Source: Pseudeuparius sepicola
Lineage: Eukaryota > Arthropoda > Insecta > Coleoptera > Anthribidae
Direction of reading: 5' to 3'
Length of the DNA stretch: 64,000 bases
Assembly (NCBI GenBank): GCA_963920635.1
Contig: OY987299.1
Span: 117,367,373-117,431,372, forward strand
The position numbers were made by a program, and so were the translations under genes. The notes beneath the pieces were generated by a model that worked only from the letters and a program-made list of their open reading frames with translations, made no database searches and was not told the DNA's origin. This document shows positions 12,139-63,205 of this stretch, one piece after another; within the stretch, counting starts at the first letter, position 1, and each line of letters opens with the position of its first letter.

Positions 12139-15100
12139 TCATTGGCCGGGTGTGTCTGTGCCGTTTCCGAAACCGCCCTCCTCCTCTTCGGCCAGCGCGC
12201 CTGCGCGCACCGGTATCCTGGCCGCCAGGCTGAGCATGCTGGCCCACTGGCCCTCGCACAGCTTGTCGAAGGTCATGCCCTTCAGGGGGTGGCCCCCCAG
12301 GTTGCCCGGCCCCCTGCAGCTCGGCTCCGAGTCCCACAGCTTGTCGGGGTTGGCTTCCGACCACCTGCAATAGGGGAAATACGCGATGAAGCAGCACAAG
12401 AAGCATTGCGAATAAGCACTAAGGATTCGGGGTGGTCGAATTATGGTAGATGACAAACCGCGGGTCTACCTACACCATTTGTAGAAGTTTCGTAGTTTCT
12501 GATTTACTGTCTGTAATGTAGGTACTGGCTTCAATATTTCTGTCGACGTCAATCTTTAATTCATTCTAAAGTTTCTAAACGCGTTAAAAATGCAACTAAA
12601 CAAATAAGTTAATAATAATTATGTGAGAACAATCGATTTTGTGATAACAATGAATCCAAGATAATCTGGCATTTTGCTTCTTGTCCTGCCTTCTTCAGAA
12701 GAAGTCAATTCAAGATGACTGGAACATGGACTCAGCTGCTTCCGCTTAAATGACTAGTAAATTAGACCTTTTGAGAGATATGAGTAATTACAGTTAATAA
12801 AGAAGATATTATAAAGTTTCGGTAGGTTGCAAATTCCAATATCAGAAGTTTTGTAGTCAGGATAATGTACCTAAACTGCTAAAAGCTAAACGTTCAATCG
12901 AATTTCTTCAATATCCTAATATAACATGTTACTTACATTGCCAGATACAATATGTTGCAATCACAGTGCCATGGGTTTTTGGCCATCTTCAAAGATACTA
13001 GTTGAGTCAGAGGATCTAACACTTTTGCTGGCAAATAATGGAATTTGTTGCTGTCCAGCTGTCTAAAAACATGTACTGTTAAAGCAAGTACTACCACAGA
13101 GAAGACCAAAATACACAGAGTTCATCTTGTCAAATATGTCGGATGGAGACCAAATTTATACGGTAATTAATCCATTGGATGTCATTCTGGATCTCCTTTC
13201 TCAGTTTTAAATTAATCTATAATTAACGAAGAACGCATTGTACTTCATAGTTTATCTGAACGATCTGATCGGGTGTGTGAAAAATTAAGTTGGGCTCCAT
13301 TTGATTATTTGACGAGATGGACTCTCTGTATTCTGGTCTTCTCTGTGGTACTACTGATTCTAAGGGTAAAACTTTTGACGTTTCTAAAAAAACGTCTGGA
13401 AGAAAAAAAATATGCCGGAGCATTTTATGACAATTTTCCTTATGAAGGAACAGCCAGTAAGAAACTAATGATGTTGTGACTTTTTCCAATTGTTATGAAA
13501 TCCCAGGTAGCCATATGTATGTACCTACCTAATCCTATCTATGTTAATCATAATTAGAAGAGCAAAGATAAGTACAGACCAAAGACATAAATATACATAA
13601 TATGTCTTTGGTACAGGCACTACAATATTATTTTCAAATAGGTACATATTCCATGTCCCCAAAATCGACTATCAAACAATAGTCATCGCATTTATCAGAA
13701 TTCCGTTAAGAGCAGGTAGTATCTAGTATCTAACCAATATTTATTAATAGATACTTACAATTTTTGTAAACTGGGAGTGTAAACAAATAATCTTGAATGG
13801 ATGTCTTTCAAAATATTGTTGTTGATTAACAGATATGTTACACTAATAAGTCCATTAAATGTTTTCTCTTTCAACTCTTCCAAATTATTGGAAAAGAGGA
13901 ACAGTTTTTCAAGATTTTTGTTTCGGATGAAGGCATTCTCAGGCAGCTCCATTATCATGTTTTGGCCCAAATGCAATTCCACCAGGCTAGTTAATCTAAT
14001 AAAATCGTTGACATCTACCTACAATATTTCTGATGAAAAACTGTAATAAAATGGGTATGTACCTAGAAGAAAAACTAGAAAACTACGGACTTAATCTTGA
14101 TTGGAAACTTCCACAGGCAGAATGTGATGAATCTGAGTTTCTTCCGGATGGATCCTGCGTCAGCGAAACTTCTCGTTCCAAGCTTTAGTCCTCGACTACA
14201 CGGGACATCCGCAGGGCGCGACGATCACACTGAGACACTGAAACGATCACACTAAGACATTGAGACTGAGTCTCAGTGTGATCGCCTCGCCCTGAAGATG
14301 TCCCGTGCAATCGAGGATGAAAGCTTGGAACGAGAAGTTTTCCTGACACAGGATCCATCGGGAAGAAACTAAAATTCAACTGCGTACTTATATAAATAGT
14401 GCAGATCGACCATGTTTTATAAGCATTATTATCAGTATGTGTCGTGCCTCAAAATAAGGGTAAGAAAACCATAATAGTCCTCAATAAAATAATGCCAAAT
14501 AATGTTCCTAATATTGGCGCAAATCACTATATTTTGTGTAGGGGAATACTACAATTTTTTACCCTTGATCTGCATTTACTAACTAATTTCATTGAGTAAA
14601 GGAATAATTAGTCCCTTACTCAATCCCAATATTTTTATATCATGACTAGTGTCCTTAAAAGTAGATACACACCTGGGCTATTTTGTTATTTGTTAGCTGT
14701 AGAACCCTCAAATTTTGCAGCTTGTCGAATAAGTTTGGTGAAATATGTGATATTTTATTTTTCCTCAAATTCAGCATTTCTAAGTTTGAGAGCTTATCGA
14801 ATATTCCTAAAACATTAAACCTATGTAGGTAAGTTTTCCTACGTCCCCGTAATTTCAGTATCTTGGTAGTACCTAAGTTATTTATATTGTTTGTTTCTAA
14901 TACCTAAACTCTTGTTCTAATTTAGAATTTTTGAATCTGAATATGAGCATAATCAGAAACGGTGGTAAGACTATAAAATAGATATGCTTTCAGGGCATGG
15001 TGTTGCCTGAGGCCGTTGAGTGTAATTCCTTCATTCAACGCTAAGGCCCTATAGCTATACCTACTGTGAACTGTAATGCTGAGCTTTTGTAATTTCCTAT

Positions 15101-18100
15101 CCCTCATTTAAACTATTCCTCAGTCTTTCTAAAAAAATTCGACTGTGGTGCATTTTATTCAACTTCAGTTTCAAAGAAAATTACCAGAAAATTATTAAAA
15201 TCGGTAATTCAATAAAAAAAGTTAGGGCATAATTGACGACTGGATATAGCTAAATCATTAATCAGCGGTTTATCAAAATATTATCGATCATCATTAAAAA
15301 AATTGCAACAATCAAAAGCTGTTTATATATATTTTATCATTGAGCATTAACGAAAATTAATGGATTTTGTATAGCATCAGTAATTAATGACAAAACAACG
15401 ATGATAACGTTGTAGTTTCGAAAATGGAATTATGTCCATAGGTAGGTAAAAAAATTGTTCAGTGAGCCAAGATTTTTGTTACCTACATACTTTCCAAAGC
15501 ACTTTTGCTTGTCAAAAGTTAACCACAAGTGTGTTTTGTACCTGTGGGTAGTAGGGAAATATTGTTTTCCGCCAAATGCAACCTTCTCAGTGCTATCAAA
15601 TCGTTGAACACAAATTTCGGCAGCATTTCGAGTAGATTGTTACTAAAATCTAGATCTTCCAAGTATTCCAACTTATTTAAAAGTGACTCTCTCAAAAACG
15701 TAATCTTGTTCCTGGAAAAATGTAGTAGTATCACGTTGGGATTTCCTGTGAGAAAGTTAGAAGGTATATCTTTTATCATATTGTCAGACATGTCCAAAGT
15801 TTGAAGGTTTCTTAAGTTCAATAGCAAAGTTTCTGGAATTTCTTCTAAGTTGTTTTTGTGCATTCTTCTACAAAACATGTAAGGTACGCATAAGTATAAT
15901 TAGGTAAAATAAAATATGGTCATCTCACAGATACTTGGTACTTACAAATATTTTAAGCTATCCAGATGCTTGAAGATATCATTGGGAAGATAATCGATTT
16001 TGTTATCAAATAAATCCAATTCGGTTAGATACGACAACATCCTAAAGTCATTTTTATTCAATGTAGTTAAGTGATTTATTCCCAAATCTCTAAAACAGAT
16101 AAAAAATATTTTATGCGCAACAATATTGAAACATGCGTCACATATTTAAACAACAAATTAATATCAGTTGAATATTGATCTTTCCATTCTTTCCTATCTC
16201 CTCTATTGTAGATTTAGATAATACGTTTGGACATACATAGCATTAATGTCATTGGGCAAAACTTGTTCCTCGGGCAACTGGGAAATATTTTGCTGCCAAC
16301 AGCTCAAGCTCTTTGTTTCGGGTTTACATTTGCAAGGTCCTTTAAGACATTCTATCCATCTTTCGTTACTTTTTGAGATTTCCCACACTGAAAAGAGAAA
16401 AAAATAGGGAGAGAGAGCACAATTGTTTACAACAAATATTGTAGCGAAACGATAAGATTTTGTATTATAGTTTGTATATTTTAGGTAACATTACTGAATA
16501 TTTGACATGATTATGATTGAATTCCACTATTGTAGGGGTTCCAAGTCCAAACCCCTTAACATATGACAAAAGGTTGGAATTCAAGCCCCCCTTTTTAATT
16601 TCAATTAAGAAGTAACAACAAACGACTTTTCTATAACAGAAAAAAGAGTAGGTACTTCTTGGTTTCGACTGAAAAAGATACAGCAAAAATTGTTTTTCAA
16701 AAACTAATATAAATTTCAGTTATTTAAACACTGATTTAGAGAAAGGAACCTGTAATGAGGTATATGCGTTAAATGATATGAACACAGCTAAACTCTGTTC
16801 AACCATTGAGTAAAGGCGTTGACTGAAATTTCAGTCAACGGTAAAGGAATAATTTATTCCTTTACCCAATGGTTCAACGAATGTTCATACCGACGTCTCA
16901 ACTCCCGTCCTTGTCTTACTCATGAATATACGATGGATATCGGAGGTATATTCACGACTCGTGAATCACGAGTCAAACAAAGACGGGAGTTGTGACGTAG
17001 GAATGAACATTCGTTGAACAGAGTTTTACATGTATTTTGATAGATAGAATTTCGATGCGCATAAAGGAAAATTGTTATGAAAAGGTTTTGTCTCACAACA
17101 TGTGAACTGGCAACACTGTCGACTTTGGTTGTTAACGTGTTGCTAAGTATGAAGTTAGGTTTGTGTGACTTTTGTAATCTGACATTTGACAATGACAGCA
17201 ATGATATTAAGTCAGTCTTTGTTGATATATAGACATGTGTATGTCGTACTTTTTGAAGTAGACTAATTTACGTTTGTTAATCACTACCAATTATACTGTT
17301 ACTCTGTGAAAGAATAAATGCTTTCTAACTTCGACTCCAACACTGGCATATCTCATTTTATCAAACAGGTTATGGGCCCAGTTATGCCCATGTGAGTCGT
17401 AAGTTGAAAAAAAGTTGTCGGCCATTATCATCAGGTGTGTCCTGTGCAGGAGGTCTCCACGTTTGTCGTGAGAAGCTGATAGTTCCTCGTACCAAAAATG
17501 GCAGACAAGGTCGACTTTGGAGTGATTAGCAAGTTCGACGGCACGAACTATCCACAGTGGAAGTTCCAAGTTAAATGTGGCTTGAAGGCCAAGGGCATTT
17601 ACGACGTGGTTAATGGAACTTTGCCGAAACCCACCAGCGGAGCGCAAGACATCAGTGCATGGAACAGAAAGGATGCTCAAGCAATGTTTACCATAACAGC
17701 TGCAATGGATTTCAAACAGATTACGTTGATTGAAAACTGTGAATCGTCTCAGGAGATCCTCAACAAGTTAGACTCCATCTATCAACAGAAATCAGAAACA
17801 AATAAGATGCTTGTGCATGAACGTTTTGCACAATACAAGATGGATTCAAAAGATAGTGTTGCTCAACATATCGCAAAGGTTGAGAACCTAGCCAAACAAA
17901 TAAAGGAAGCAGGTGAAACGATAAGTGAAGCAGCGGTAATGACCAAAACACTTAACACACTTCCTCTGAAGTATAGAAATATACGACAGGCTTGGTTATC
18001 CCTTGATGACAGCAAGCAGACAATTGCGAATCTCACGGCACGGCTCATCGACGAAGAAGCGAGTTTGACAGCTTTCGAAGAGACTGAAACAGCCCCAGCT

Positions 18101-21100
18101 TCAGTTAGATTGAGGGTAGCAGGCCAGAAGAGAAACACAACAAGTAGTAGAGGAAAAGGTATTGTTTGCTACAATTGTCGGCAGCGTGGGCACATTTCTC
18201 GAGACTGTACCCAGCCGAAGAAACCTGTTAACAAGAACGATGGTGATGGGAACAACACAGGTGGTAGCAGGAGGAAAAACAATTCCCAGGACAGTGCGTT
18301 TACTACATCAAGTAATGAAACCGCTTTCAACGTTGTTGAGACAAATCAGTTTCATTTAGACGATGATACGTGGACCTTGGACAGTGGTGCCTCAGTGCAT
18401 ATGTGCTACCGACGTGAGCTATTTGCTACTTTCACCGAAGATTGTAATTCAACTGTAACGTTAGGCAACGACGCACCTTTGATGGCAAAAGGGCGTGGTA
18501 CCATAAATATTCAGAAGCTTATAGATGGACAATGGTTTAATTCTACCATTAACGAAGTTTTGTACGTACCAGACCTCAAGAGAAATTTACTGTCAGAAGG
18601 TGTACTCACGAAGAAAGGTATGGAGATTGTCAAAGTAAAAGAGCATGCCAAGATATACAACGATGGACAGCTGAGTGCTGTTGGTATCCGTGGCACAAAT
18701 AACCTATACAGAATGCTATTCCGGACGGTTGTGTACCAAGCAAATGTTACAGCTAGTGAAAGTTTGCGTCTATGGCACGAGAGACTTGGTCATGTCAACA
18801 TTGGTTCCTTGTGTCAAATGGTTTCAAAAGGGCTTGTCAAAGGTGTCAATCTTAGTGACAAACAGAATTTCTTCTGCGAAGCATGTTGCTACGGCAAGCA
18901 ACACAGACAGCCTTTCAAAAATAACAGCCATGTTAAAATGAAACCCGGTGAACGTGTGTACAGTGACGTATGCGGTCCTATGTCTGTTCCTTCAGTACAA
19001 GGGGCAAGATATTTCGTCACGTTCAAAGACGAAAACACAGGTTATCGTGTCGCATACTTTATCAAGCACAAAACAGATGTGCTTGACTGTTTCAAAGTGT
19101 ATAATGCGAAGATTAAAAACAAATTCAACCGATCAGTTAAAGTTCTTCACGTGGACAACGGAACTGAGTATCGGAATCACGACTTCAAGGAGTACATGGA
19201 TACAGAGGGTATCGAGTTGGAAACAACAGCACCATACACGCCACAACAAAATGGTAGGGCAGAACGGGACAACCGTACCATAGTAGAAAGCGCTCGATCG
19301 ATGCTATACAAGTTAGGAGTGTCACGCCATCTCTGGGCGGAGGCAGTTAATACTGCTGTATACTTGTTGAATCGAACACCAACTACCCAGGCGCCGAATT
19401 CTACTCCGTATGAACTATGGTGTGGTCAGAAAACCTCTCTCGAACATGTCAAGGTGTTTGGATGTGACGCATTCACACATGTACCAGATCAGAAAAGATC
19501 AAAATTAGATGCGAAAAGTCAAAAGCTTATTTTTGTGGGATATGACAAAAACTCTACGAACTACAGGCTGTATAATCCAGAAAACAGAAAAATTGTTGTT
19601 TCTAGAAGTGTCAAGTTCAATGAAGATAGCCATGGATTGGTTCAGAATAATCGAAATGTCAAAATTACATTGGAGAGCGATGACGTAACAGAATTAGAAA
19701 CTGATGAAGTGGAACACATTGCTGCAGAAAATATGGGAGCTGACGAAAGCGATTTGAACATAGAAGCTCCAAACTTGAAACCACAAAGATCGATTAAATT
19801 ACCAGCCAGATTCAATGATTACGAGTTAAATTTTGTGGAAGTCGATATACCAAACACCTATGAAGAGGCAGTGCATTGTAGGGATGCAAAACAGTGGGAG
19901 AAAGCTATAAAAGAAGAGCTAATGGCCTTACAAGAAAATGAAACATGGGACTTAGTACCACTTCCGGCAGAAGAAAAGGTGATTGATTCGAAGTGGGTGT
20001 TCAAAGTCAAGAGAGGCCCAGATGGTTCCGTCCTTCGTTACAAGGCGCGACTATGTGCCAGAGGGTTCGAACAACGAAAAGGCATTGACTATAACGAAAT
20101 ATTTTCTCCAACAACCAGGTATGATTCAATCAGAGTCCTTTTAGCTTTAGCTGTCAAGAATAATTTCAAAATAATGCAATTTGATATCAAAACTGCCTTC
20201 CTGAATGGTGATTTGAGTGAAGTTATTTACATGAAGCTACCAGAAGGTTTGGAAGAAGAAGAATTGTCAAATGACAGCAATTCTAACCTCAAATTCGTTT
20301 GTAAACTAAAGAAATCACTCTATGGTTTGAAACAGGCGCCGCGATGTTGGAATCAAAAGTTCCACATGTTTTTGAGCAGTTTTGGCTTTACGCAAGCACA
20401 ATCTGATAAGTGTATCTACAACGGCATTGTGAATGATATAAGAGTGCTATTGATTTTATATGTTGACGATGGACTTGTTCTTTCAACAAGTTTGCAAGCA
20501 ATTGATTTGGTTTTGCAAAAACTGAATAGTATGTTCAAGATGACTATTAGTGAACCCGAATGTTTTGTCGGACTGGAGATTGCCCGAGACGAAGATGACT
20601 CCATGTTTATCAGTCAAACAAACTACATTCAGCGACTTGTGAAGCATTTTGGCTTTGAAAATGCTACTCCAGTAAGCACACCAGAAGACCCGAATTGCGA
20701 TCTTACAACCGAGATAGGCTCAATAATGAACGACGACCAAATACCTTACCGACAAGCAGTTGGCTCGTTAATGTTCCTAGCTGTTGTCAGTCGTCCGGAC
20801 ATTTCCCATGCAGTGGGAGTAGTAAGTCGTTTCGTTAACAACTACACAACTGCACATTGGAATGCTGTGAAGAGAATCTTCAAGTATTTGATAAAAACTC
20901 AAGATTACGGCATTACGTATCGCAGGCAACAAGGCACGTGTCCAGAGTTGATAGGATATTCCGATGCCGACTATGCAGGAGATGTTCAGTCTAGAAGATC
21001 TACGAGTGGATATGTGTACAAAATATGTGATGGTCCAATTACATGGTGCAGCCGAAGGCAACAGAGTATCGCTCTATCTACGACCGAATCTGAATACATC

Positions 21101-24100
21101 GCTGCATCCGAAGCTACGAAAGAAGCACTGTGGCTGCAACAGTTGCTAAGAGATATCGGAGAAAATACTTCGAAACCTACTACGCTCCTGATAGACAATC
21201 AGAGTGCGATAAGACTAATACGAAACCCTGAATTTCACAATCGTACCAAACACATCGATGTTAGATTTCATTACATCCGAGAGAAATTCGAGAGTGGAGA
21301 TATTTTACCAAAGTACGTCGAGAGTGCTCGTCAAGAAGCAGACATCTTTACGAAGGCACTACCGAAAGCGAAGTTTGAAAAACTCCGGCAGTTACTTGGA
21401 CTGAGTAAGAATAAAAAAGGTTTAGACCTTGTGAAACAAAAAGTGGGAGTGTTATGAAAAGGTTTTGTCTCACAACATGTGAACTGGCAACACTGTCGAC
21501 TTTGGTTGTTAACGTGTTGCTAAGTATGAAGTTAGGTTTGTGTGACTTTTGTAATCTGACATTTGACAATGACAGCAATGATATTAAGTCAGTCTTTGTT
21601 GATATATAGACATGTGTATGTCGTACTTTTTGAAGTAGACTAATTTACGTTTGTTAATCACTACCAATTATACTGTTACTCTGTGAAAGAATAAATGCTT
21701 TCTAACTTCGACTCCAACACTGGCATATCTCATTTTATCAAACAAAAATGCTAAAACAGTAGCTGCTAAGAGAAAATCAGAAACTAGTAAAAAAGATTGG
21801 ATTACACCAGGTTAACTATTAAATGCTGCCTACAACAAATATAAAAATTTAATCAGATTGTTAATAAAAAGATCGAAACAAAATTTTAAGTAAGTTCTTC
21901 GGGTCTTTAGGAGTGTGTTAATAAAATCTGTGGCATATCCAGACCTGAAACAAAAATTGATAAAATAGTAGTTGACCAAAATGAGACTAAGAGAATAAGT
22001 ACTATAGCGAGTAGTATAGAGAGTGAAAAATACAACATAATTAAATTATCATCGGTATACAAAAAGAATATAAGAAACTTTGAGAACAGTTTAATCTTAA
22101 CCGACACAAATAATAGCAAAGGAATTGAAAATATTTTAATAAAATAAAATGAGTGAAACTAAAGAAAGCACTGGACTGGGATAGCTATAAACAAATCGCC
22201 ACAAAAATCGCAAATCCTTTGGTATTTATTATTGACAAGTGTTTTTGTAAAGGCTGCTTTCCAGATTGTTTGAAAAGGAGTACTACGACCACTATTTAAA
22301 AAATGAGAGAAACACAATGTTGAAAATTACCGACCAATATCCCTTTTATCAGTTTTTCAAAAAATATATGAGAAACTGTTGAAATCTATAATTCTTAATT
22401 TTCTAGAAAAATACAACATTCTGCCACAAAAAGAGTACGGTTTCAAGGAAAACAAACCTACTAAAGATGCTATCATGCCTCTAACATCGAAAATCATTCA
22501 CTATGAGTTTTTGTTGATTTAGGTACCAATAAGTATTTATTTTGTATTGTCTTTATGGCAATAATATATATACGCTTTTCCATTAAGAGGTGTCATTTAA
22601 AATTTTGCTCAATTTTTCTACTTAGCCCGATAAATATGTCAGTTTTCCAAAAAAAATCCAAACAGGATGATTTTTTCAGGGTTGCTTGGGGACTGCCTCC
22701 TGAGTGTCCAACCAAAAGATCACACTCGAACTCCTGGAACGAATTGCGCTATAGGGTGGTTATAAGTGTTAGAGACACAAAAAGATTTTGTAAGAAGAAG
22801 TTGACCAGAAGTTCATCATCTAAAACTTTTATCAAGGTCATTTTTTTTGCAAAAGTACCCCTGCAGCGTGCTGAATTTTTGTTATATAAATAATGCGCTC
22901 TAACTCGATAGTATTATAGAGATACAAAAAAAATATGGGGAAAAGTTGTTCATACTTTGATCCCCTACAACTTTTATTAGGGTCATTTTGTTCTAAAAAA
23001 TGTTATAATATCATGGCATTCTAGGTAATATTTCATCTTCATTCATTGAATTTTAATTGGGATTTTCGCCATCAAACTGGTTAAAAGACAACTTTTTCAA
23101 GTTGCCTGGAAAATTAATAAATTCTTAACAGTAAATGAACTAAACTTTGAACTTGTAACTCAAAAAATATCTTCAACAAATTTGTTTCCTGAGCTTTCGG
23201 AGAATAAATCTTCCTCCTTTCTCAAAGATCATGTCACGTCAAAGTGAAACGGCAGAATAATAAATTTCAGCTTAAAATGCCATGACAACAGAAACAATAG
23301 CCTAGTCACCTGCCTGATATTGTATTTGTATTTGTATTAATTTCTCTTTGAATCCTAGAATAAATGCTGATTCTTTAATTTTTCGTCTATTTCCTACTTT
23401 GAGAATTGGTTTGGACCTATCCCACAATATCCTATGATTGTTATTAAAAGAATGTTCACATATTTTTGACTTCGAAATTTGATTTTGCCTGATATAATTT
23501 TTATGTTCTTTTAAACGAACGTTAAATGGCCTACAAGTGTCCCCAACATAGAACTTTCCACATTCACAAGGAATTTTATAAATGCAATTTTTTGAACTTT
23601 GTACCTCATTAAATGGTTTCGTTTTAACTAGCATCGATCTTAATGTATTTTTAAATACTGTTCGGACATTAAAACGATTGCCTATGCGTTTTAGCTTATC
23701 TGATAGTCCAGGAATACCTCTAAGGAATAATTAAATTTACTGGTCGGTCCACCAGATAAATAAATAAAATAAGAAATAAATTTTCTGGATGCTCAGATGT
23801 GCTAGCTAACTACCTATTTAGAAATTTTCAGAGGTAATTCGAAGATGATTCCAATTTAGATGGAATAGGTCCTACTCAAAACCATTGTGAGCTTACCAAA
23901 AAGTAGTTGTTTTGGTATTAGTAGATCTCGAGTTGGTTGCCACCATAAGTAAAAAGTTTTAGCTCAAACCATGTTTGGGTAAAGTCAACTCGAAACCAAG
24001 AACTCTATAGTGCGTTTCTCCGAACGACCGTAGACATTCTCTTCTGAATCGCATCGTGTGGGATATACCCGGTACGTTCTAGAAAACGCTAAAATTTCAC

Positions 24101-27100
24101 TGTCTTCCTATGTTACTGTCTCCCTTTCAGCGAAGCTTCAGTCTTCCAGTAAATCATCCCGCTCAATGGATCTAGCACATTCAAAAACCCAAGACTGTAA
24201 TATAAAACCGTTGATTGAGTCCATCGACGATAAAACCAAGCTTTTAGGTGAAATCTACACAAAGGCACTGCTTATTCAATGTAAAAATACATACCTATCT
24301 TATTAAAATTTTGTAGTACGTAAACTCTATAGCCTTTGTGAAATGAAAAGTATAAAAAGTGTTCTTGAGACTTCCATGGGTTTAGAAACATAACTGTCTG
24401 ATTACTAACAATCAATGGTGCATGGTGCCATTGAGTAAAAAAATATTATATTATTAAATATTATATTCTTTTACTCAATGATGGTGCTACTGTATAATCG
24501 TTGGGTGAAGATTAAACCTTCAGTCAACGGTATAATATTATTGGTAAGGTAATTTCAAATTTTGGTGAAAGCCTCGGGAAAGCGGCACCTAGCACTTTGG
24601 GAGCAAACACACACAGATAGAAAGATCGGGCGTACATTTTTCGTACGTACATTTTTCCTGCTACCGACAATTTCATATTATAGGTACTTTGAATTAAATT
24701 TTAAATACACTGTGGAGTAGATTGTGACTAATAATTTTCATAATAACCATTGTTCAATTACAACAAATGATACTGAGTGATAAATAAATATACAGGGAGA
24801 GTTTTTTTCGATGCCCACTATGGGGATCTCGGAAACCAGCAGAGCTAGAACAAAGGTTAAATGAGGAAAGAATTGCAGTTTTGAATGTTCAATCTAAGGC
24901 CCCTTTTGGATTTTTAAAAAAGTTCATGGCTCACTCTATATTTTGAAGAGTGATTTTTTGCTATTTGATCTGATCTCTGTAGCTCCGTTATTTCTGATTA
25001 TACAGAAAAACTGTAGAGACAAAAATTGTAGATAATTTTTGGCTTAATAAGATAATCGAATCCAATTTTTTATGTTGTTTGTGATCTTTGAGATATGACA
25101 TAAACTTTTGTTTTTTTAAATGTAAATCATAGTTGTCTGTGGCTTTATAAAATCGGACATTTTTTGAGCTTTCCAAAGATATAATACTCGGCATAGTTAT
25201 TATAAAAAATAAAGGAGCTTGGCCAATTTCCTGATTTTTTTTTAAATTTTCACGTAGTCAGCCATGGAATATTTTCATAATTACGTCCTATTTTAAAATT
25301 AGACATACTTCAAACTTTTTAATATTTTGTTTTTAGCTGGTAACAAAATGTAACAAAATAAAACAAAAATTAAAAAACTCAAATGCAAATTATTATTATT
25401 TTAAAAGGTCACCTTTTAAAATTAAAAAGGTGTCTAAACAATCCACCATTATTATTTATGCAAATATTGCATCTTTATAGAACTGAATTTGTCGCCTTTC
25501 TTAGGCAGCGCCTGTCAATACTGGAATTGCTTCCAAAACAGCTACTCTTAATTCAACAATAATTGTCTGATACTTTATTTTGTACTGTTCCCCAGAAAAA
25601 GAAATCCAAAACAGACAAATCGGGGGATCGGGGCTGCCAGGAAATAGGTCTATTTCTCCCTATCCAACTATTTGGATAGAGCTGACCTTACGGCCAAATA
25701 ATTATGTGGTGGAGCTCCATCATGATAATTTTTGTTTTATTTTGTTACATTTTGTTACCAGCTATAAATAAAATATTTGAAAGTTTGAAGTACCTATGTC
25801 TTATTATAAAATAGAATGTAATTATGAAAAAATTCCATGGCTGACTGTGAAAATTTAAAAAAAAAATCAGAAAATTATCCATAGCTCGTTTATTTTTTAC
25901 AATAACTATGACGGGTATTATATCTTTGGAAAGCTCAAAAAATGGCCGATTTTATAAGGCCACTGCCAACTATGATTTACATTTAAAACAACACAAGTTT
26001 ATGTCATATCTCAAAAATCACAAACAACATAAAAAATTGGATTAGATTATCTTATTAAGCCCAAAATTATCTACAATATTTGTCTCTACAGTTATTCTGT
26101 ATAATCAGAAATAATGGAGCTACAGAGATCTGATGAAATAGCAAAAAATCACTCTTTTCAAAATATCTAGTGAGCCATGAACTTTATCAAAAATCCAAAA
26201 GAAGCATTAGATTAAGCATTCAAAACTGCAATTCTTTCCCCATGTATTCTTTGTTCTAGCTCTGCTAGTTTCCGAGATCCCCATAGTGAGCATCGAAAAA
26301 AACTCATCCTGTATAAGAGGCAGAATGCAGCGATAATAGAAAGTAATTTAAAAAGTTGGGATTTGTGTCGGATTTGAACCTGGGATCTACGAATTACTAG
26401 TCGCGTAGTCTCACACCCTGCGGTTATAGCGGGGTGCCTGTCAAACTTGGTCTGTAAGGCGGCTCTTATTCGACGCCAGGTAGACATTGATAATATTAAT
26501 TTTTCTTTGGTATAATTCGTGTTGTTTCTAGTCAAAAACCAGTTTGTAAAACGATTTTTGTGAAACCTATAAACCTATTAAAATTAAAGTTTTGCGTTGC
26601 GCGTTGCTACATATAGGTATTTTATTAATGGTTTTGAGGTCCTTGCTGCGTAAGAGTTGCTAAGCGATACACTTTTTGTACCTAGCAACCAAAATAACAG
26701 GACACCTCGAATATTTCACTGTAATTTGTGCTTTGTTGTACCTATATCAGTGTGCAACTTAGAGAAATTATTTCTGCATATACATAATGAGCAAACACCA
26801 TTTCTTTTTATGCAATACAATATCTCACCTTTTAGTTTTTCCCACGTGCAGAAAAACTCATTATAAGGTGGGTCGCTTATATAAACATAGACCCTAAAGT
26901 TCTTCGTTTCTGAGATACAGGGAGTTGTAGTTCTCTTTTTAAAATTAAATTATGGCAATATCTCCCAAAATAATCAAGTTGCTGAATTGAAATTTGGCAC
27001 TGCTTTGTTTTCGGAAATGCAGAATAAGCCGTCAATTTCTACGTATCTCACAGAGGGCGCCACTTGCGCTATTTTAGAGTGGTGCTGTTACTTGTAACTT

Positions 27101-28456: not shown

Positions 28457-29329
28457 AGTGGTAATATCATTTCGTTCTATTGAATAATTCTGGTTGGACT
28501 AACTGGAAAAAATTGCTGATTGCGATGTTGACAACGTGTAAAGCCACGTAGACCTCCCACAAGTCAAAATTAAGATCGTGCCGTTTATCCTTACAACATA
28601 TTGTGATGAAACGGTAACGGTGTAGAGAAAGAGAAAATTATATTTACCGGACGTTCCGAATTCAGAATCAGGAAGAGTTACATATTTTTGTGAAGATGTG
28701 GTTTTATGTTAATATAATTAAATTAAAACATTATGGTGATTTTATTGTGGGCAATCTAATAAAGAAAATCCTATTTTCATAATTTACTCACCCTACGGGT
28801 CAATATGGCCACTTGCAAAAGTTGCTGGTATCGACTGTTAGCATGAAAACGATGTAAATTTTCAAATTTTTTCAATACAAATTGTGGCTTTCATTATTCT
28901 AATTATTGTGTGTATATTCCATTAAGATATTTTTAGATTTGTTGTTTGGAAAATACACGTATAATTTTCAGGACTAGACCGGCCCAAGGGCTGCCGAGAA
29001 GTTACCCTTTACCGATCCTTGATAGATCAACAGAGCTGAAGACAAGTGATCATAAAAATCAAATTTAGGCTCACTTCAAACGTTCTACTTCAATTCTGCA
29101 GTTGCCATACAAATTAGACCTAATCACTAATCATTGAATAAGGAATTCACCTTAATCAATGACCTAATTTAGTGATATTTTTCTTCAACTTTCAACTTCT
29201 TAAATGCCAAATAATGAAAATAATGCCGCACTTCTCCACAGAATAATAGTGGCCTTTGGTAGAACCATGGTAGAACCAATATTATTTATGTATGGGGGTA
29301 AGATCGAATTTTAAAACAATTAATAAATG
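28457..29329. other. Upstream region of the LRR gene
   Basis: AT-rich, no gene recognised apart from the small palindrome at 29132-29161. Confidence 0.4.
29132..29161. mobile_element. Micro-palindrome family 1-like, 30 bp
   Basis: CATTGAATAAGG ... CCTTAATCAATG with one arm mismatch. Flanks CACTAAT and ACCTAAT agree at 5 of 7. An older or coincidental member. Confidence 0.45.
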
Positions 29330-36324: not shown

Positions 36325-36882
36325 AAATCGGCAGTGAAGTGTCTCAAAATCGTCATTAAAAGCTCAGAAATCGGCACTGAAGTAGCCCATTATTGTACGA
36401 TTTTTTCAATAGTCAAAAGTGACCAAATATTGAAAACCCGGCCAATAAATCCCATTAACTTTTCGTACACATTGCGAAATTGTTACCTATAGCCTATAGC
36501 AGCGCAATAATCATTATAAATATTTTAGTAGGTTTGAATATTATTCTATTTTACATGAAGGTAGCACAATAATAGGCAGCAGGTTGGATTTTATGTCAGA
36601 AAGTGCCGTGTCTCGTCATAGGTACTTGACCTAGGTAGAGCGATCGTCAAAGTCAAGCAACGCCGCGCGTAGTCAATTCTTGGACGGGTGATCCCTTATG
36701 ATTATTTTTTCTCCTAATAAAACATTTTTTCCCGATTTAAAAAAAATATATAATATGTACCTCGGCATTGAAGTTCTTTTTATGACTCATGTGGAATTTA
36801 GTTGCCGAGGCCTCTGGCCGAGGCAAATAAACCACATGAGTCATAAAAAGTTGAACTTCAGTGCCTTGGTACATAAATAACT
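36325..36882 (+). mobile_element. 5S rRNA-related repeat (SINE3-like), copy 1
   Basis: 36638-36693 aligns without gaps to the internal promoter part of arthropod 5S rRNA (AAGTCAAGCAACGCCGCGCG, then GGACGGGTGATCCCTT). It is followed by a long hairpin (TTTTTATGACTCATGTGG against CCACATGAGTCATAAAAA, 36776-36852). Preceded by AAATCGGCACTGAAG motifs. Two more copies are at 57955 and 60968. Confidence 0.68.
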
Positions 36883-40199: not shown

Positions 40200-41217
40200 G
40201 CTGTTTTTATAAATGTTTACCAAAGAGTGGTCATGTAGAATCTGTAGAATAAATTAGAATATTGATTTAAAAATGTGTGTATTCAGGCTTTAGTTTATAT
40301 TCATAAAAAATTGTTTTATGAATCTAAAATAATAAATAATGATATTTCTCTTTTGAAACATTCTCTTGTTTTCTTAATTTATTGACACCCTGCACATCTG
40401 AATTCACATTTTATATATTACGATAAACTCATTTTTTGACAAGCAGGATTTCCGTTGACAGACTGTATATTACATTACTTATACATATAAAAAAGTGCCG
40501 TTTTCTACCTTAGATTTCTTCCTCTCCACGTCGGGTATTGGTATCATCAAAGTATCCTCGGAAGAAAATGATGACTTTCCTCCCTAGTTTTACAAGTAGC
40601 TATTTTTCCTGGGAAATTTGTGTTTGAATGAAACATATTCCAACGTTTTAAAAGTTCAAAGTGTCCCGAATAAAGTATCCGCTTTATTTTTATGGCTAAA
40701 GACGCTAAAGTATTAATAACTGTATGACTTTCGGGAACTGATAAGACACGACAGATGTCCGATCTCTAGCTTTAGTGCATTTTCTTATCTTAAATAATTA
40801 TAAGGTTCCCGTGAAACAGTCACTGAAAGGTATAGATATTTTATCAACAATATTTTTTTTTTTGTAATTTGCCATGATGCGGATTTATAAATTCTTATCT
40901 TATAACAATAGGTACAAGTTCAGCCTTCATCTTTGCACCTTGCACCAACTTCGATATGAGTGTCTCTAATAATTATTATTGTTATAGATCAATAATTAAA
41001 CCTAGAATTAGGTAAGGCGAATGAATATGGCCTGGATTTTTTACTGATTTTCATATAAAGCACTAAGGAAACATGAAATACAAAATATGATAAATTTCAA
41101 ATACATTTTCCAAAAGTTGCTCAATAAGCGGGCCGTGACCTCCGAATGATGTTCAGCAAAAAACGCGCAAAATCAAAGGTTCACCAAATCTTATGTGATA
41201 CTAGGCCACATATAATA
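40200..41217. other. Stretch without supported gene
   Basis: AT-rich. A minus-strand open block at 40520-40590 (GKSSFSSEDTLMIPIPDVE) looks coding-like but lacks a good acceptor and is left uncalled. Confidence 0.35.
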
Positions 41218-41752
41218 TGGCGACTTTGTGGACCTCTCTAAAGCATTCGATACAGTGTGCCACAAAAACTTGATGGATAAGCCCGAGGATAAGCCACTTC
41301 GGTATGGAATTAGAGGAAATGCATATCAATTAATAAAATCGTATCTTTCAAATAGGGAGCAGATTATTGTAAGTGCCAACGGTTGTGTGAGTGGTTCCAG
41401 GGTTGTTTCTCTTGGGGTCCCTCAGGGAACGGTCTTGGGACCATTGCTCTTTGCCTTGTATCTGAATGGCCTTCTTCAAATGAACACCTCCGGAAAGATT
41501 CTGAGTTTTGCTGATGACACGGTCATTTTATATCGAGATCAATCCTGGAGTACCCTAAAAGATAAAGCTGAAAGGGATTTCCTTCAAATAAAAAAGTGGT
41601 TTCAATACAATAAACTGAAATTAAACTGCTCAAAAACTAAATATTCGCCGTTTACCTCTTACGTTTCTAATCTTCGGCAAATGGGCCCATTAAATGTTGA
41701 TCAAGAAACCGTCATACCAGAAACGGAGCAGATTAAATATACCTTGGTATAA
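41218..41752 (+). pseudogene. Non-LTR retrotransposon RT fragment
   Basis: Open frame of 175 codons reading VDLSKAFDTVCHKNL (RT block 3), YGIRG, SYLSNREQ, VPQGTVLGPLLFALYLN (block 4), FADDTVIL (catalytic block 5, F-A-D-D) and NKLKLNCSKTKY. This is the centre of a Jockey/CR1-type reverse transcriptase. Endonuclease, N-terminal RT and C-terminal thumb are missing. A decayed C-terminal tail (DVKKLWDREAIVNKIKSL) occurs at 42148-42230 after a 200-bp palindromic insertion. Truncated, probably dead. Confidence 0.82.
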
Positions 41753-43944: not shown

Positions 43945-45138
43945 TACATACTTACCTACATGTATTTTTTTCAAATTACAAACTACATTGCAAATCATTG
44001 AAATTTGAAAACACCATGTTATTTTTATAAACAACGCAAAATGTTTCTTGAATAAATTTTCTTTTTCTTTTCTTTAAATAAATTATTAAAGACTTCTGGC
44101 GGCTGTCACGTCTGGCACTTTTTTTATACATATATATATATATATATATACAATGCAAAATATATTGTTAGCCATCCGCGCCATCTGTTTTCCAGAACAT
44201 GAAGCTATAGTCGTGAGAAGTCTTTAAAAATACGTCAGTCAATGCTATTATGCAATAACAGAGATAATGATTACGATGTTTGACAACAATAATGTTAGAA
44301 ATGCCAAATTGTTTGACTGACAGAATGTGCTTGCTCATTGCTGTATTTTCCACGGCCCAGAATATTTTTGTGCTAAGAGAGTAACCCACTAAACCGTGGC
44401 ATTTTTCCAAATTCTGATAAAGTAATCATAAAGCAATCAGTTTTTGTTTTCATCACGAAAGTTTTTCGGTAAAAATATGTTTTTACACAAAGCTAGACCA
44501 TCAAAAAGGCAATTTTTCTTTCAAATAAAGAAAAATTCATATTTGCGGAGGTATTTCGAGTGGTCCTCCATCAAAAGACATTCTGTGACGTAATGTTTCC
44601 ATTGCAATATGGCAATTTTGTAATTTTCAAATCATTTGATTGGTCGGTGTCGGTGCAATGTGGTAATCGTGTCCCAGCGCGCAGTTGCGTCCGCGATATT
44701 TCGGTCGACAATCTAGTTGTTAAATAATGTGTTTATAAATTGCGCTCATTAAATAATACAATTAAGATTTGACTAATAAGAAACCGTGGCCAAGGCTCTA
44801 GATTTATATTTTGCAATTCCGCCATGCGCGCATCTCGAGTGGTACGCGCCGGGTCTTGACCGGTCCATTTTTACTTTTGTTTTTGCAGCTTCACAAACAC
44901 TTGACTTATGAGGTACGAGGTACAACCAGTTTCAATATATCAATTAAATGGGATTTTTGCAGCTGCTGTTTATCGGTTGTTCTGCGGGCATTGCATTCTA
45001 TGATTGCAGAGGAAGTTCCCGCATCCTGTGTTTTTCGAGGTCATTAACGCATCGTTTGTTTTTAAATTTGAAAGTCCTAAATTGATTTGTTCTGTTCTGC
45101 AAACCTTCTTTATTTCTCGTCTCTCCCATATGCATATA
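43945..45138. other. Mostly unrecognised stretch
   Basis: Holds a (TA)n run at 44133-44150 and the one-ended MITE below. The region 44640-45050 is more GC-balanced with a CpG-rich patch, but no exon could be defended. Confidence 0.35.
44101..44247. mobile_element. Diverged, one-ended copy of the 60-239 MITE
   Basis: In reverse orientation: GGCTGTCACGTCTGGCACTT, TTGTTAGCCATC, CTGTTTTCCAGAACATGAAG, GTGAGAAGTC and terminus TACGTCAGTCAATG match the complement of 60-239. The other end is lost or replaced by the (TA)n run. No duplication visible. Confidence 0.6.
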
Positions 45139-51238: not shown

Positions 51239-54200
51239 GGTGAGTGCAACGATAAAATGCGGGCCGCTGCATGCATCCCAAACGGGAGGGGGTACGCGAT
51301 ACGCTTGTATTTCGGTCGCGCGCCCGCCCGCCCGCCGTCGGGCAATCCTGCTACGGGCCACGGCGGCGGCACCTTGAACTTGAATGAACCCACACGGACT
51401 TCGTTTACTTTTGTAGACGCGCGCGCAGCGCACATGCACGCGGCCGCCGACCGCCGTCGGTCGACCCGTCACCAAACGCACCGGCTCCCATCCATTACGA
51501 CCGCCAGGCCAATATTTATTTGTCTGGGCCGATTATGGAGCTCATTTTCTATTGCCTTAGAAAATACTTCAATTCTAATTTAAACCTTAGCACACGGCTT
51601 ACGCCTCCTCTTCCTGATTAGTGTATTTTCCGAGGTAGGTATTTTCGGTATGTTTTGTTTAGCCCCCTTTCAGATCAAGCATTTAGAAGGTCCAAATATA
51701 ACAACTCGACCAAGTTTGTCACATTTTAGATATTAAAACATGGCAACACGGGCCAAGGAATAGACCAACAAATTTATTGTTTTTTAAATCGGCACTAAAC
51801 ACTCAAAATCGTCATTAGGTAAAAGGTTTGTGGACGATTTGTGCTCTTTGCGTTGAAATATTTTCTGGAGTTGGTACAGACATAACTCCTGTAAACCTTT
51901 TTTTCATAAGATGTAAGCATAGCCGAACGATAACGATACTTGTTCAGCTATGATGTAAGACTTGACGCATGTCATAACAAAATGCAGTAACTTTGATTAG
52001 TACACAAATTTTAACTGGCAGTATATGTTCTAAAAACGCCACCAAGAAAGTTTCTTTTTGATATGCAGAAAATAAAATGTTATGGTCATTCAAAAATTGT
52101 CCCGAATTTTATAGACAGTTTGAGAACCACTGGTCGCAAGAACTCTTCATTATTGAAGCGATGGCTTCCTACTACAGCGTTGCCATATCGTCAGATAATT
52201 CCTTGAAAGAATAATAATATCAAGACTCACCTAATACAGAATACAGAAGCACTCTATACCATAACTTAGTAATAATCTCATTTACCACTTCACTAAACCA
52301 TTAAAATTGTTATTTCACTTTTCATTATACATTCACGACACAACACACCACTTCTTAATGACAGCACTCACCATAACGTACTAAAAATTTAACACTTACT
52401 AATTTATTTTCAGCACTCCACTTCAAAATATCATCCTCTAATACAAGCTTCCACTCTTAGCTGTATAGATTTTTATTGAGACTGAGGAGAGTGATGCGCG
52501 ATGAGCTGGATTCTGAAAGTTTGTACTGTACGTTCTGCACCGGGCAGTTCGAACGCGATGGTATTAACTCGCGATCCTATAGCACCTACCTGTAATAGGT
52601 GTGTATATACCTGAATTTTCGTATAAGAATCTGCCAAATCAAGGAAATAATGGACGGGGTTAGGCCAAAGAAAATTGCTAGAAATGTTTGTTACTTCATC
52701 GACGTTTTGACCTTTATAAGGTCATCTTCAGGAATAGAAAAATGTTAAATCTCATCCTAAATTGAACAGTATGAAATTTGCCCTATAAGCCCAATGGTTT
52801 ATAAAGAAAATCTTATTTTTTTACTAATGCTAATTTTAGCTTGATTCTTCTAAACTGGAACTCCCTGATATACAGGGTTCTCCACATAAAACTCCCACCT
52901 CCCTGTAATATTTCGGTATATAAACACCATGTCGCGTTGAATATTATTCATCACTTAACGACCATGTTCAGTAAATTCGCTAATAAATACTTTTACCCCA
53001 TTGGACCTTTTACTGCCTACGAAGCCAAATCATTTTCACCGATAAGTTAAAATGTCACTTGGTGATCACAACACAAGGAAAAGCCTACCGCCTACCTCTT
53101 CGCTTTGCTGTTTGCTAGAAAAACCTACTTAAATGCAACTGCTATTATGTTTAATCCAAATTCGTATGTTTGATGGCGATGTTGGGAGCATTGCAAACTA
53201 TTATTTGGATCGCATCCAGAGTCGGGGCACACTGCATTGCATGCGCATATCTTTATAGAGGGCCAAGAACGCTGTTCAAAATGTGGATTCACGGTGGCTT
53301 TTTATCCGTGTGTTTTCTCGCGTTTTCCGCAGTACTTAAGCGAGTGCTTGCTCTATCGTGAAAAGTCGACCTTATTAGCCGCAAATGGAATTAATAATAG
53401 TAATTGTCACCCCTCCCCCGAACAAGCATTCGGGTGCTTTTGAGGTATTTCCAGTTTGGAGTATTCTGAGGGTGAGAATTATCATTATTGTTAAACTCCA
53501 CCGTTTATCCTCAAACCACCAGTTAGTCACATTTACTGTTGGATGTTTTTGGGCCAGATGAAATTGATGCTACTATTGCCTCACACATTTACAGGCAATA
53601 AATAAGAACTTTCATGAATATCAAAGATATCAACAAAATTATTTCTGACTGTCAGTGCGGTTTCCGCCATCAATAATAGTCTGGCAATATTTATGTAGGT
53701 ACCTACTACCGTCGATGGAAGAAGTAAATCAACGCTACTCTACTACCTACTATGTGTTGACGCGCAAAACTCGTAGGTATTATCTACTATGTTCATATGT
53801 GCCTAATTTGGCTGAATAAATCTATTTATATTACTGACGACTGCAATTTGGCTTTGGAATAAGCATGGTAGATGGTAGATCGCTGCACGTTGGTTTTTTA
53901 ATGGTGTCCCGAATAACAGACATATATTTAATTACCGGTATCGAAGGGAGAAAAGGGTTGACCATTAAAATATATAGGTTAGGTACAGAAATTACCATGT
54001 CACAAAAAATTGACCACGTCGGGATTTCTAAAACAACATCATTAACTTATTTCAGATTTGAAGCATGCACCAAAAATAAGAATACATTTCAGTACTGATA
54101 CTGCTGATCCGACCAGTTTCAGTTCACATCAATTTTGATTACCGGTAATTGGCTCGTAATTTCATCCATAACCAAAGCTTTTGTGCAAAAATGCACGAAA

Positions 54201-54608: not shown

Positions 54609-54642
54609 CATTGAGTAAAGGAATTTATTCCTTTACTCAATG
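54609..54642. mobile_element. Micro-palindrome family 1, 34 bp
   Basis: CATTGAGTAAAGGAAT, two bases, then the exact reverse complement. Flanked by exact GTTATAC (54602-54608, 54643-54649). The cleanest family 1 copy. Confidence 0.82.
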
Positions 54643-57954: not shown

Positions 57955-58490
57955 TACCAAGGCACTGAAGTTCAACTTTTTATGACTCATGTGGAGTTTA
58001 GTTGCTGAGACCTCTGGCCGAGGCAAATAAACCACATGAGTCATAAAAAGAACTTCAGTGCCGAGGTACATATTATATCTTTTTTGAAATCGGAAAAAAA
58101 TGTTTTATTAGGCAAGAAAATAATATTAAGGGATCACCCGTCCATGAACCGACTACGCGCGGCGTTGCTTGACTTTGACGATCGCTCTACCTAGGACAAG
58201 TATGATGAGACAAATTTACTAAAATATGTATACTGAAGGATTGCGCTTCTATAGGAAACAATTTCGCAATGTGTACGAAAAGTTAACTGAGCCTTTATCG
58301 GCCGGGTTTTGAATATTTGGTCACTTTTGACGGGCGATTTCTCCGCGTCTGACGTTTGATGTTTACATCTCGCCAAGGCCTACTTATTGAAAAAATCGTA
58401 CAATAATGGGCTACATTATTGTACGATTTCTGTGCTTTTAATGACGATTTTGGGACATTTTAATGCCGATTTCAAGAAAACAAATTAAAA
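57955..58490 (-). mobile_element. 5S rRNA-related repeat, copy 2
   Basis: Reverse of copy 1: hairpin at 57977-58052, 5S-like GGATCACCCGTCC ... GGCGTTGCTTGACTTTG at 58130-58182, then TTCGTACACATTGCG-like and CATTATTGTACGATTT blocks in the same relative order. Confidence 0.65.
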
Positions 58491-62344: not shown

Positions 62345-62630
62345 CAAAAAAATCCAAACAGGATGATTTTTCAGGGTTGCTTGCGGACTGCCTCCTGAGT
62401 GTCCAACCAAAAGATCACACTCGAACTCCTGGTACGAATCATGCTATAGAGGGGTTTCTTAAACAATAGGGGTTGTTTTCTAAACATTTTTTAAGAGCAA
62501 AATGAACCTAACAAAAGTAACATTTTTTTACAAAAAAATTACATTAGTAAAAGTTTTATGGGACGAACTTCAGGTCAACTTTTTCTTATAAATTGTTTTT
62601 GTGTCTCTAATACTTAAAGTTTTACAGGGC
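62345..62630 (+). repeat. Second copy of the 22645-22895 repeat
   Basis: Shares AATCCAAACAGGATGATTTT and TCACACTCGAACTCCTGG. Its right part (AACTTCAGGTCAACTTTTTC, GTGTCTCTAATACTTA) is the complement of the first copy's right part, so the family is palindromic. Confidence 0.55.
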
Positions 62631-62844: not shown

Positions 62845-63205
62845 GTACGAAAGCGTAGAGCGGCCACATGCGATTTTTTTTATCCTTGACACTTTTTTCT
62901 GTCAATTATACATCGTTGACACTTTTTCTGTCAATTATACACAATTGACACTTTTTTCTGTCAATTAGATATACATAATTGACACTTTCTTCTGTCAATT
63001 ATACATCGTCGACAGTTTTTTCTCTAAATTATACATAATTGACACTTGACAACGACAACGACAACGATGTATAATTGACAGGAAAAAGTGTCAATTATGT
63101 ATAATTGACAGAAAAAAGTGTCAACGATGTATAATTGACAGAAAAAAGTGTCAAGGATAAAATAAATCTCGTGTGGCCGCCCTAAGCTTTCGTAGCTTTG
63201 CATAC
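62845..63205. repeat. Palindromic minisatellite inside a foldback
   Basis: About five units of TTGACACTTTTTTCTGTCAA plus TTATACAT(C/A) on the left and three complementary units on the right, meeting at ACGACAACGACAACG near 63055. The outside is bounded by AAAGCGTAGAGCGGCCACAT and its inverted partner ending near 63200. Confidence 0.7.

Follow-up and report, generated by a model that had tools for sequence, protein, structure and literature searches.

Transposons of the P superfamily typically have termini that begin with CA(T). Repaired excision sites of the Drosophila P element have been described (PMC2895639) as a target site duplication (TSD), a stub of the 17-nt tail, a short join or filler, a second stub, and the other TSD. 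In Table 1 of that paper, both TSDs were kept in 63 of 66 isolates, and the sequence between them fell within 20 to 52 bp in 39 of the 63, 16 to 17 bp in 4, and 4 to 7 bp in 20; the both-TSD junctions tabulated there have a median of 30 bp and a maximum of 44 bp, and the table includes 19 perfect palindromes of at least 20 bp. One perfect palindrome of 30 bp came from 14 independent events, a 37-bp product (17 + 3 + 17) is listed twice in Table 3, and Table 2 gives templated fillers of 42 and 49 nt. These scars came from a Rad51-deficient germ line; in the same assay, wild-type products were reported to result mostly from incomplete gap synthesis and then joining. According to PMC7776569, the 17-nt staggered cut sets P elements apart from other characterised cut-and-paste transposons. 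Galileo, also of the P superfamily, has 7-bp TSDs with the consensus GTAGTAC, GTATTAC, or GTANTAC (PMC2775673 and PMC4168063), and Galileo copies of two-TIR and solo-TIR form exist (PMC3573991); the portions consulted of PMC3573991 and PMC12910113 held nothing else bearing on excision scars.

The 11 palindromic sites described here lie in a 64-kb window (the whole stretch of DNA analysed), which is AT-rich eukaryotic DNA (66% A+T). Like the Drosophila P footprints available for comparison (PMC2895639), they can be read as two TSDs around stubs of at most ~17 nt that were annealed, bluntly joined, or connected by short or templated filler, and they are often perfect palindromes. Their lengths also overlap, 39 of the 63 fly junctions and all 11 sites here measuring 20 to 52 bp in a search that was blind to shorter units. 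The TSD, however, is 8 bp in the fly and 7 bp here, and the terminal sequences differ. The fly footprints are laboratory events in a Rad51-deficient germ line, whereas those in the window would be old natural scars; moreover, the fly class that keeps only 4 to 7 bp (20 of 63) would be unrecognisable here, where the parent of the A type of palindrome is unseen.

We consider it probable, at roughly three chances in four, that the palindromes are fossil excision footprints of several P-superfamily-like transposon families and not transposons themselves. A full-size element would insert, duplicating 7 bp of target, and a transposase, presumably of P type, would later excise it by a long stagger, probably of 17 nt in this species, so that ~17 nt of each end stays as 3' single-stranded tails. 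As the likely last step, end joining would fuse the two tails, which may be trimmed, annealed over a short stretch, or linked by a few filler nucleotides. Because the tails are nearly identical in inverted order, the joint would form a palindrome, limited to ~34 bp plus any filler and enclosed by the two 7-bp repeats.

Palindromic sites and their 7-bp flanks

A strict scan of the window (inverted termini with 10-bp arms, at most one mismatch, unit length of 20 to 160) returned 1,214 inverted units, six of which have flanks of exactly 7 bp, every one of them starting with CAT or CGT. About 0.4 such flanks are expected among 1,214 units at the background rate of the window, which is 1 in 3,092 (848 of 2,621,786 placements, spacing of 20 to 60). 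This rate replaces the figure of 1 in 16,384 given in the earlier note, and the excess is still far beyond chance. Zero flanks of at least 7 bp were found by the same scan in 20 Markov-shuffled windows, which understate the background somewhat because they contain only 376 inverted units on average. Five of the six units with 7-bp flanks are among the six palindromes that the note had named, and the sixth is 51918 to 51952.

The view that the palindromes arose by chance in AT-rich DNA draws on the fact that 7-bp flanks are commoner here than had been assumed and that the window holds three times as many inverted units as the shuffles. It is opposed by the six exact flanks where ~0.4 were expected, by termini common to several sites, and by the nested and empty-site cases described below. 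We rejected a chance origin, which has a negligible probability, on the basis of the strict scan against shuffles, the nested case, and the empty-site comparison. The window also contains 152 inverted-repeat pairs of at least 16 nt within 400 bp. A 75-bp inverted-repeat unit occurs in two 96% identical copies (36776 to 36850 and 57976 to 58050) and, because the inverted symmetry extends into the flanks, probably represents the centre of a larger foldback element.

At other flank lengths, the strict scan gave one unit with 6 bp (56367), two with 8 bp (56368 and 62900), and one with 10 bp. The first three were set aside as AT-rich or tandem-repeat units, and the last is the inner palindrome of the unit at 1575. 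Short palindromes such as TGTCAATTATGTATAATTGACA form a cluster with CTTTTTTC-like spacers at 62846 to 63194, apparently a satellite-like array in which a 22-bp palindrome is repeated.

Broader scans gave similar excesses. Exact flanks around units of 14 to 600 bp were found in 17 cases versus 5.0 per shuffle; nine of these have the termini described here, and the other eight, whose termini are AT-rich or unrelated, were set aside. Termini of the form C-A/G-T-A/T-G with a flank of at least 6/7 yielded 11 units versus 0.3 per shuffle, two of which, at 19759 and 43986, were regarded as background. A loose scan (exact flank, up to 4 mismatches in 10) gave 30 units versus 4 to 12 in 8 shuffles. 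The units at 24209, 16817, 24499, 54609, 51918, and 24429, with A, B, or C termini, were kept, 29125 was counted as the known 29132 unit, and 23 further units were set aside. A scan for 6/7 flanks (up to 3 mismatches) gave 77 units versus 25 to 40 in shuffles and added no new site.

The termini of the 11 sites fall into three types: the A pattern is CATTGAGTAAAGG, the other patterns are CGTTGACTGA and CATAGCYGAAC, and the C type starts with CATAGC. The A and C types begin with CAT, as do the ends of Drosophila P and zebrafish Pdre2 (PMC10983969); the B type begins instead with CGT. The CATTGAGTAAAGG terminus occurs at four sites, whose left arms are identical over 16 bases: the compound unit of 82 bp at 1575 to 1656 (TSD CTACCTA); an old 36-bp unit (17 + 2 + 17) at 14590 to 14625 with flanks of 5/7; a 37-mer (17 + 3 + 17), interrupted by a B-type 24-mer, at 16804 to 16871 (TSD GTTCAAC); and a 34-bp unit (17 + 0 + 17) at 54609 to 54642 (TSD GTTATAC). 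A variant of the A type, at 24429 to 24480, is 52 bp long and can be parsed as two 17-nt stubs around an 18-nt AT-rich filler (TSD ATGGTGC), and an old A-like unit of 30 bp with flanks of 5/7 lies at 29132 to 29161. On the left side of the 24429 unit, ATGGTGC stands twice in tandem (24415 to 24428), as would be expected if an earlier excision had been nearly precise and a new insertion had then hit the same spot.

The B type comprises a 27-bp unit at 15014 to 15040 with flanks of 6/7, the perfect 24-bp palindrome CGTTGACTGAAATTTCAGTCAACG at 16817 to 16840 inside the A-type 37-mer (TSD GTAAAGG), a 31-bp unit at 24499 to 24529 (TSD GTATAAT), and probably a 21-bp unit at 24209 to 24229 (TSD ATAAAAC). 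The last is weaker than the other sites, with 2 mismatches in 10 terminal bases; the 24499 unit, picked up by the looser scans, has 2 mismatches among 12 terminal bases. An ORF with leucine-rich repeats, possibly a host gene exon, is located at 15522 to 15899; a search for its homologues returned none at E <= 0.001. The single C-type unit, at 51918 to 51952, is 35 bp long (17 + 1 + 17), with the termini CATAGCCGAAC and CATAGCTGAAC and the TSD ATGTAAG.

In all, eight sites have exact flanks, one has 6/7, and two have 5/7. The exact flanks of the six palindromes named in the earlier note and the 6/7 and 5/7 flanks at 15014 and 29132 were all recovered, and the sites at 14590, 24209, and 51918 had been missed, as had the two full-size elements with exact flanks described below. 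The duplication is 7 bp long, the eighth base matching in only 3 of 10 exact cases (eight palindromes and two full-size elements), which is in line with the 7 to 8 bp duplicated by the P superfamily.

The units can be read on one plan, in which the two TSDs enclose two stubs, each no longer than about 17 nt, with 0 to 18 nt of filler between them. The un-nested lengths are 21, 24, 27, 30, 31, 34, 35, 36, 37, 37, and 52 bp. The lengths of the six longest would fit two putative 17-nt stubs with 0, 1, 2, 3, 3, and 18 nt of filler, and the remainder are shorter than 34 bp. That the ends of the 30- and 31-bp units overlap had also been considered as evidence for 17-nt stubs, but the argument was dropped as tautological, since any string of length 34 - k overlaps itself by k.

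Nested insertions and full-size elements

The sites reported in the earlier note as near-perfect palindromes of 24 to 82 bp are real, but two of them are composite. Removal of the 24-mer at 16817 together with one GTAAAGG restores a 37-mer at 16804, so that the 68-bp unit there is a 37-mer with a nested 24-mer. This 37-mer equals the 37-mer from 1575 in the opposite orientation, with one base changed. The 16804 palindrome, in turn, interrupts the left arm of a further inverted-repeat element, the arms of which are located at 16872 to 16925 and 16966 to 17019. Joining the flanks of the palindrome via one GTTCAAC gives a sequence that aligns with the right arm through the joint (75% identity over 134 query bases, of which 14 lie to the left of the joint), and the intact right arm therefore represents an empty site for the 16804 unit. 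Both events, the 24-mer into an A-type palindrome and the A-type unit into the arm, duplicated 7 bp and are real insertions. Together with the exact flanks and the TSD motif, the nested case and the intact opposite arm support the claim of insertion with a 7-bp duplication. Next to this element, at 17060 to 21736, lies a copia-type retrotransposon with an uninterrupted ORF of 1319 amino acids (17498 to 21457); its 300-bp end repeats are 98% identical, and it is therefore probably young.

The 82-bp unit at 1575 contains an inner palindrome (1600 to 1635) without its last G, with repeats of 9 to 10 bp around the inner copy, and subtraction of the inner unit and one 9-bp repeat leaves the 37-mer. 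It would be either a nested scar or a single scar with 48 nt of templated filler. The missing G and the 9- to 10-bp repeats make the inner copy odd as an insertion and natural as templated filler, and the fly fillers of 42 and 49 nt (PMC2895639, Table 2) make a one-step origin possible.

Full-size elements with 7-bp TSDs occur in the same window. A non-autonomous element of 180 bp on the forward strand (60 to 239) has the B-type termini CGTTGACTGACGTATT and CGTTGATTGACGTATT, beginning with CGTTGACTGACG, and is flanked by the TSD GTAATAT (53 to 59 and 240 to 246); 1 of its 12 terminal bases is mismatched, and its TIR is about 16 bp long with one mismatch. A decayed second copy is present on the reverse strand at 44082 to 44244 (blastn within the window, 88% identity over 95 bp and 81% over 42 bp), with the outer end CATTGACTGACG and the other end lost. 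A 253-bp non-autonomous element on the forward strand (13095 to 13347), with the termini CACAGAGAAGACCA, has the exact TSD GTACTAC and a 14-bp exact terminal repeat that begins with CAC. Transposons with B-type ends and 7-bp TSDs thus exist alongside the palindromes. Beyond the palindromes, the next exact-TSD unit whose termini read C-A/G-T-A/T-G is the 180-bp element; the window holds no such unit of 83 to 179 bp, none longer than that element up to 6 kb, and none with a flank of even 6/7 between 83 and 169 bp.

The TSDs are similar to those of Galileo. GTACTAC at the 253-bp element is the reverse complement of the Galileo consensus GTAGTAC, and the eight exact TSDs of the palindromes match GTANTAC at a mean of 3.375 of 6 positions (background mean, 1.65; P = 2e-5) or 3.43 without the nested one (P = 4e-5), for a motif that was picked after these TSDs had been seen. 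Three of the eight (CTACCTA, ATGGTGC, and ATGTAAG) fit it poorly. The earlier note knew of no named family with TIR-only units of this size. For the palindromes themselves, the matches listed from the literature covered (without most subscription papers and bioRxiv) included no corresponding named family or natural genome-wide P-type scars, and a literal search for the terminal sequences returned only matches unrelated by title. With respect to the TSD, however, the statement was too strong, since 7-bp GTANTAC duplications have been published for Galileo. Unlike Galileo, which has long TIRs and a known transposase, the full-size elements of the window end in short TIRs (an exact 14 bp in one, about 16 bp in the other). 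In this respect they recall zebrafish Pdre2/THAP9 as described in PMC10983969, whose short 13-bp TIR likewise starts with CAT (CATACC, compared with CATAGC in the C type); Pdre2, in contrast, has an 8-bp TSD, and when zfTHAP9 carried out excision in fly cells, flanking DNA tended to be lost.

Among 20 ORFs of the window searched in Pfam, none encodes a P-type transposase, which would combine THAP with RNase H-like domains; such a partner may be encoded elsewhere. One fragment of a reverse transcriptase (RVT_1) is located at 41216 to 41749. No full-size element with an exact A-type terminus (CATTGAGTAAAGG, parent ends CATTGAGTAAAGGAATA) is present in the 64-kb window, so that the commonest type of putative scar is the one whose parent is unseen. 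As the 20 ORFs hold no transposase and the window no A-type parent, membership in the P superfamily is something that we infer, whereas the resemblance in working to P excision scars is well supported. An argument for membership from subterminal repeats was dropped as not significant against shuffles: the 9-bp inner inverted repeat AGATTGCTC of the 180-bp element was trimmed to 8 by the test, a level reached by 26 of 300 shuffles, and the inner inverted repeat of the 253-bp element was matched in 97 of 300. The A-type palindrome patterns had no match in viral and prokaryotic contig collections, nor did the terminus of the 180-bp element among viral contigs, results that say little for a eukaryotic element.

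It is rather improbable that the palindromes are excision scars of another superfamily, one whose cuts likewise fall well within the element and whose target duplication is 7 bp long. The lack of a transposase among the 20 ORFs would suit such an origin, as would B-type termini that start with CGT where the ends of Drosophila P and zebrafish Pdre2 start with CAT. On the other hand, the 17-nt staggered cut is listed as distinguishing P elements (PMC7776569), and the TSD motif fits Galileo.

Excision scars or mobile units

The earlier note regarded the palindromes as TIR-only units that appear to be mobile themselves; at 21 to 52 bp, they would depend on a transposase acting in trans from another locus. 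Their TSDs are exact at 7 bp, there are more palindromes than full-size elements in the window, and no A-type parent occurs in the 64 kb, all of which agrees with this proposal. The same 37-mer at 1575 and 16804, and once more, nearly complete and apparently self-inserted, at 1600 within the 1575 unit, counts against excision scars, and a mobile unit would predict it. The ratio of eleven scars to three elements in 64 kb is also high and counts against the scar reading.

Nevertheless, the proposal of self-mobile units fared poorly, and we regard it as unlikely. Copies of a MITE should share one interior and one length; among the 11 sites, which span 21 to 52 bp un-nested, only the 37-mer recurs, and lengths and centres otherwise differ from copy to copy. 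The arms of the 51918 unit match over 11 bp with one mismatch and diverge further in, as would stubs from the two ends of a short-TIR element, and the unit is not palindromic past its first 11 bp. Transposase binding sites of P and Galileo were placed 41 to 80 bp inside the ends (PMC3688188), and the palindromes therefore lack room for internal sites of this kind. A 24-bp unit is too short for two 17-nt staggered cuts, which would overlap. At 1600, the inner copy, with its terminal G missing and repeats of 9 to 10 bp at its sides, does not look like a clean insertion. Recurrence of a palindrome need not mean mobility, because flies form identical scars repeatedly without the scar moving, as with the 30-bp palindrome that arose 14 times (PMC2895639). 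Finally, full-size elements with 7-bp TSDs are at hand, and the anatomy of the palindromes is that of the published P excision scars.

A more specific form of mobility is also doubtful: the 37-bp palindrome might itself move in trans via a P-like transposase, through a nearly single-stranded or hairpin-like intermediate. Such an element (17 + 3 + 17) would consist almost entirely of the two 17-nt tails and would possibly be the smallest eukaryotic transposable element.

Interrupted gap repair, in which an element loses all but its ends, would leave internally deleted copies. The wild-type fly products mentioned above, mostly incomplete synthesis followed by end joining (PMC2895639), lend it some weight. 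A broad spread of leftover lengths would then be expected, but the un-nested units end at 52 bp with putative stubs of ~17 nt, and units that combine C-A/G-T-A/T-G termini with exact TSDs are absent from 83 to 179 bp; we consider this origin very unlikely.

If the palindromes are excision scars, a natural genome can be read as an archive of P-type excisions, with eleven scars and at least three terminus types in 64 kb. Such scars would reveal departed transposon families, the stagger of the cut, and the end-joining habits of the host (microhomology, blunt joining, and templated filler) with no experiment needed. A count of eleven scars to three elements would imply that excision was frequent in the past, although extrapolation from one window is unsafe. 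They also call for caution, as minimal mobile elements can be mimicked by short palindromes with perfect target duplications. Among the other repeats of the window is a 90-bp sequence of unknown kind, found at 22672 to 22761 and, with 92% identity, at 62367 to 62456.
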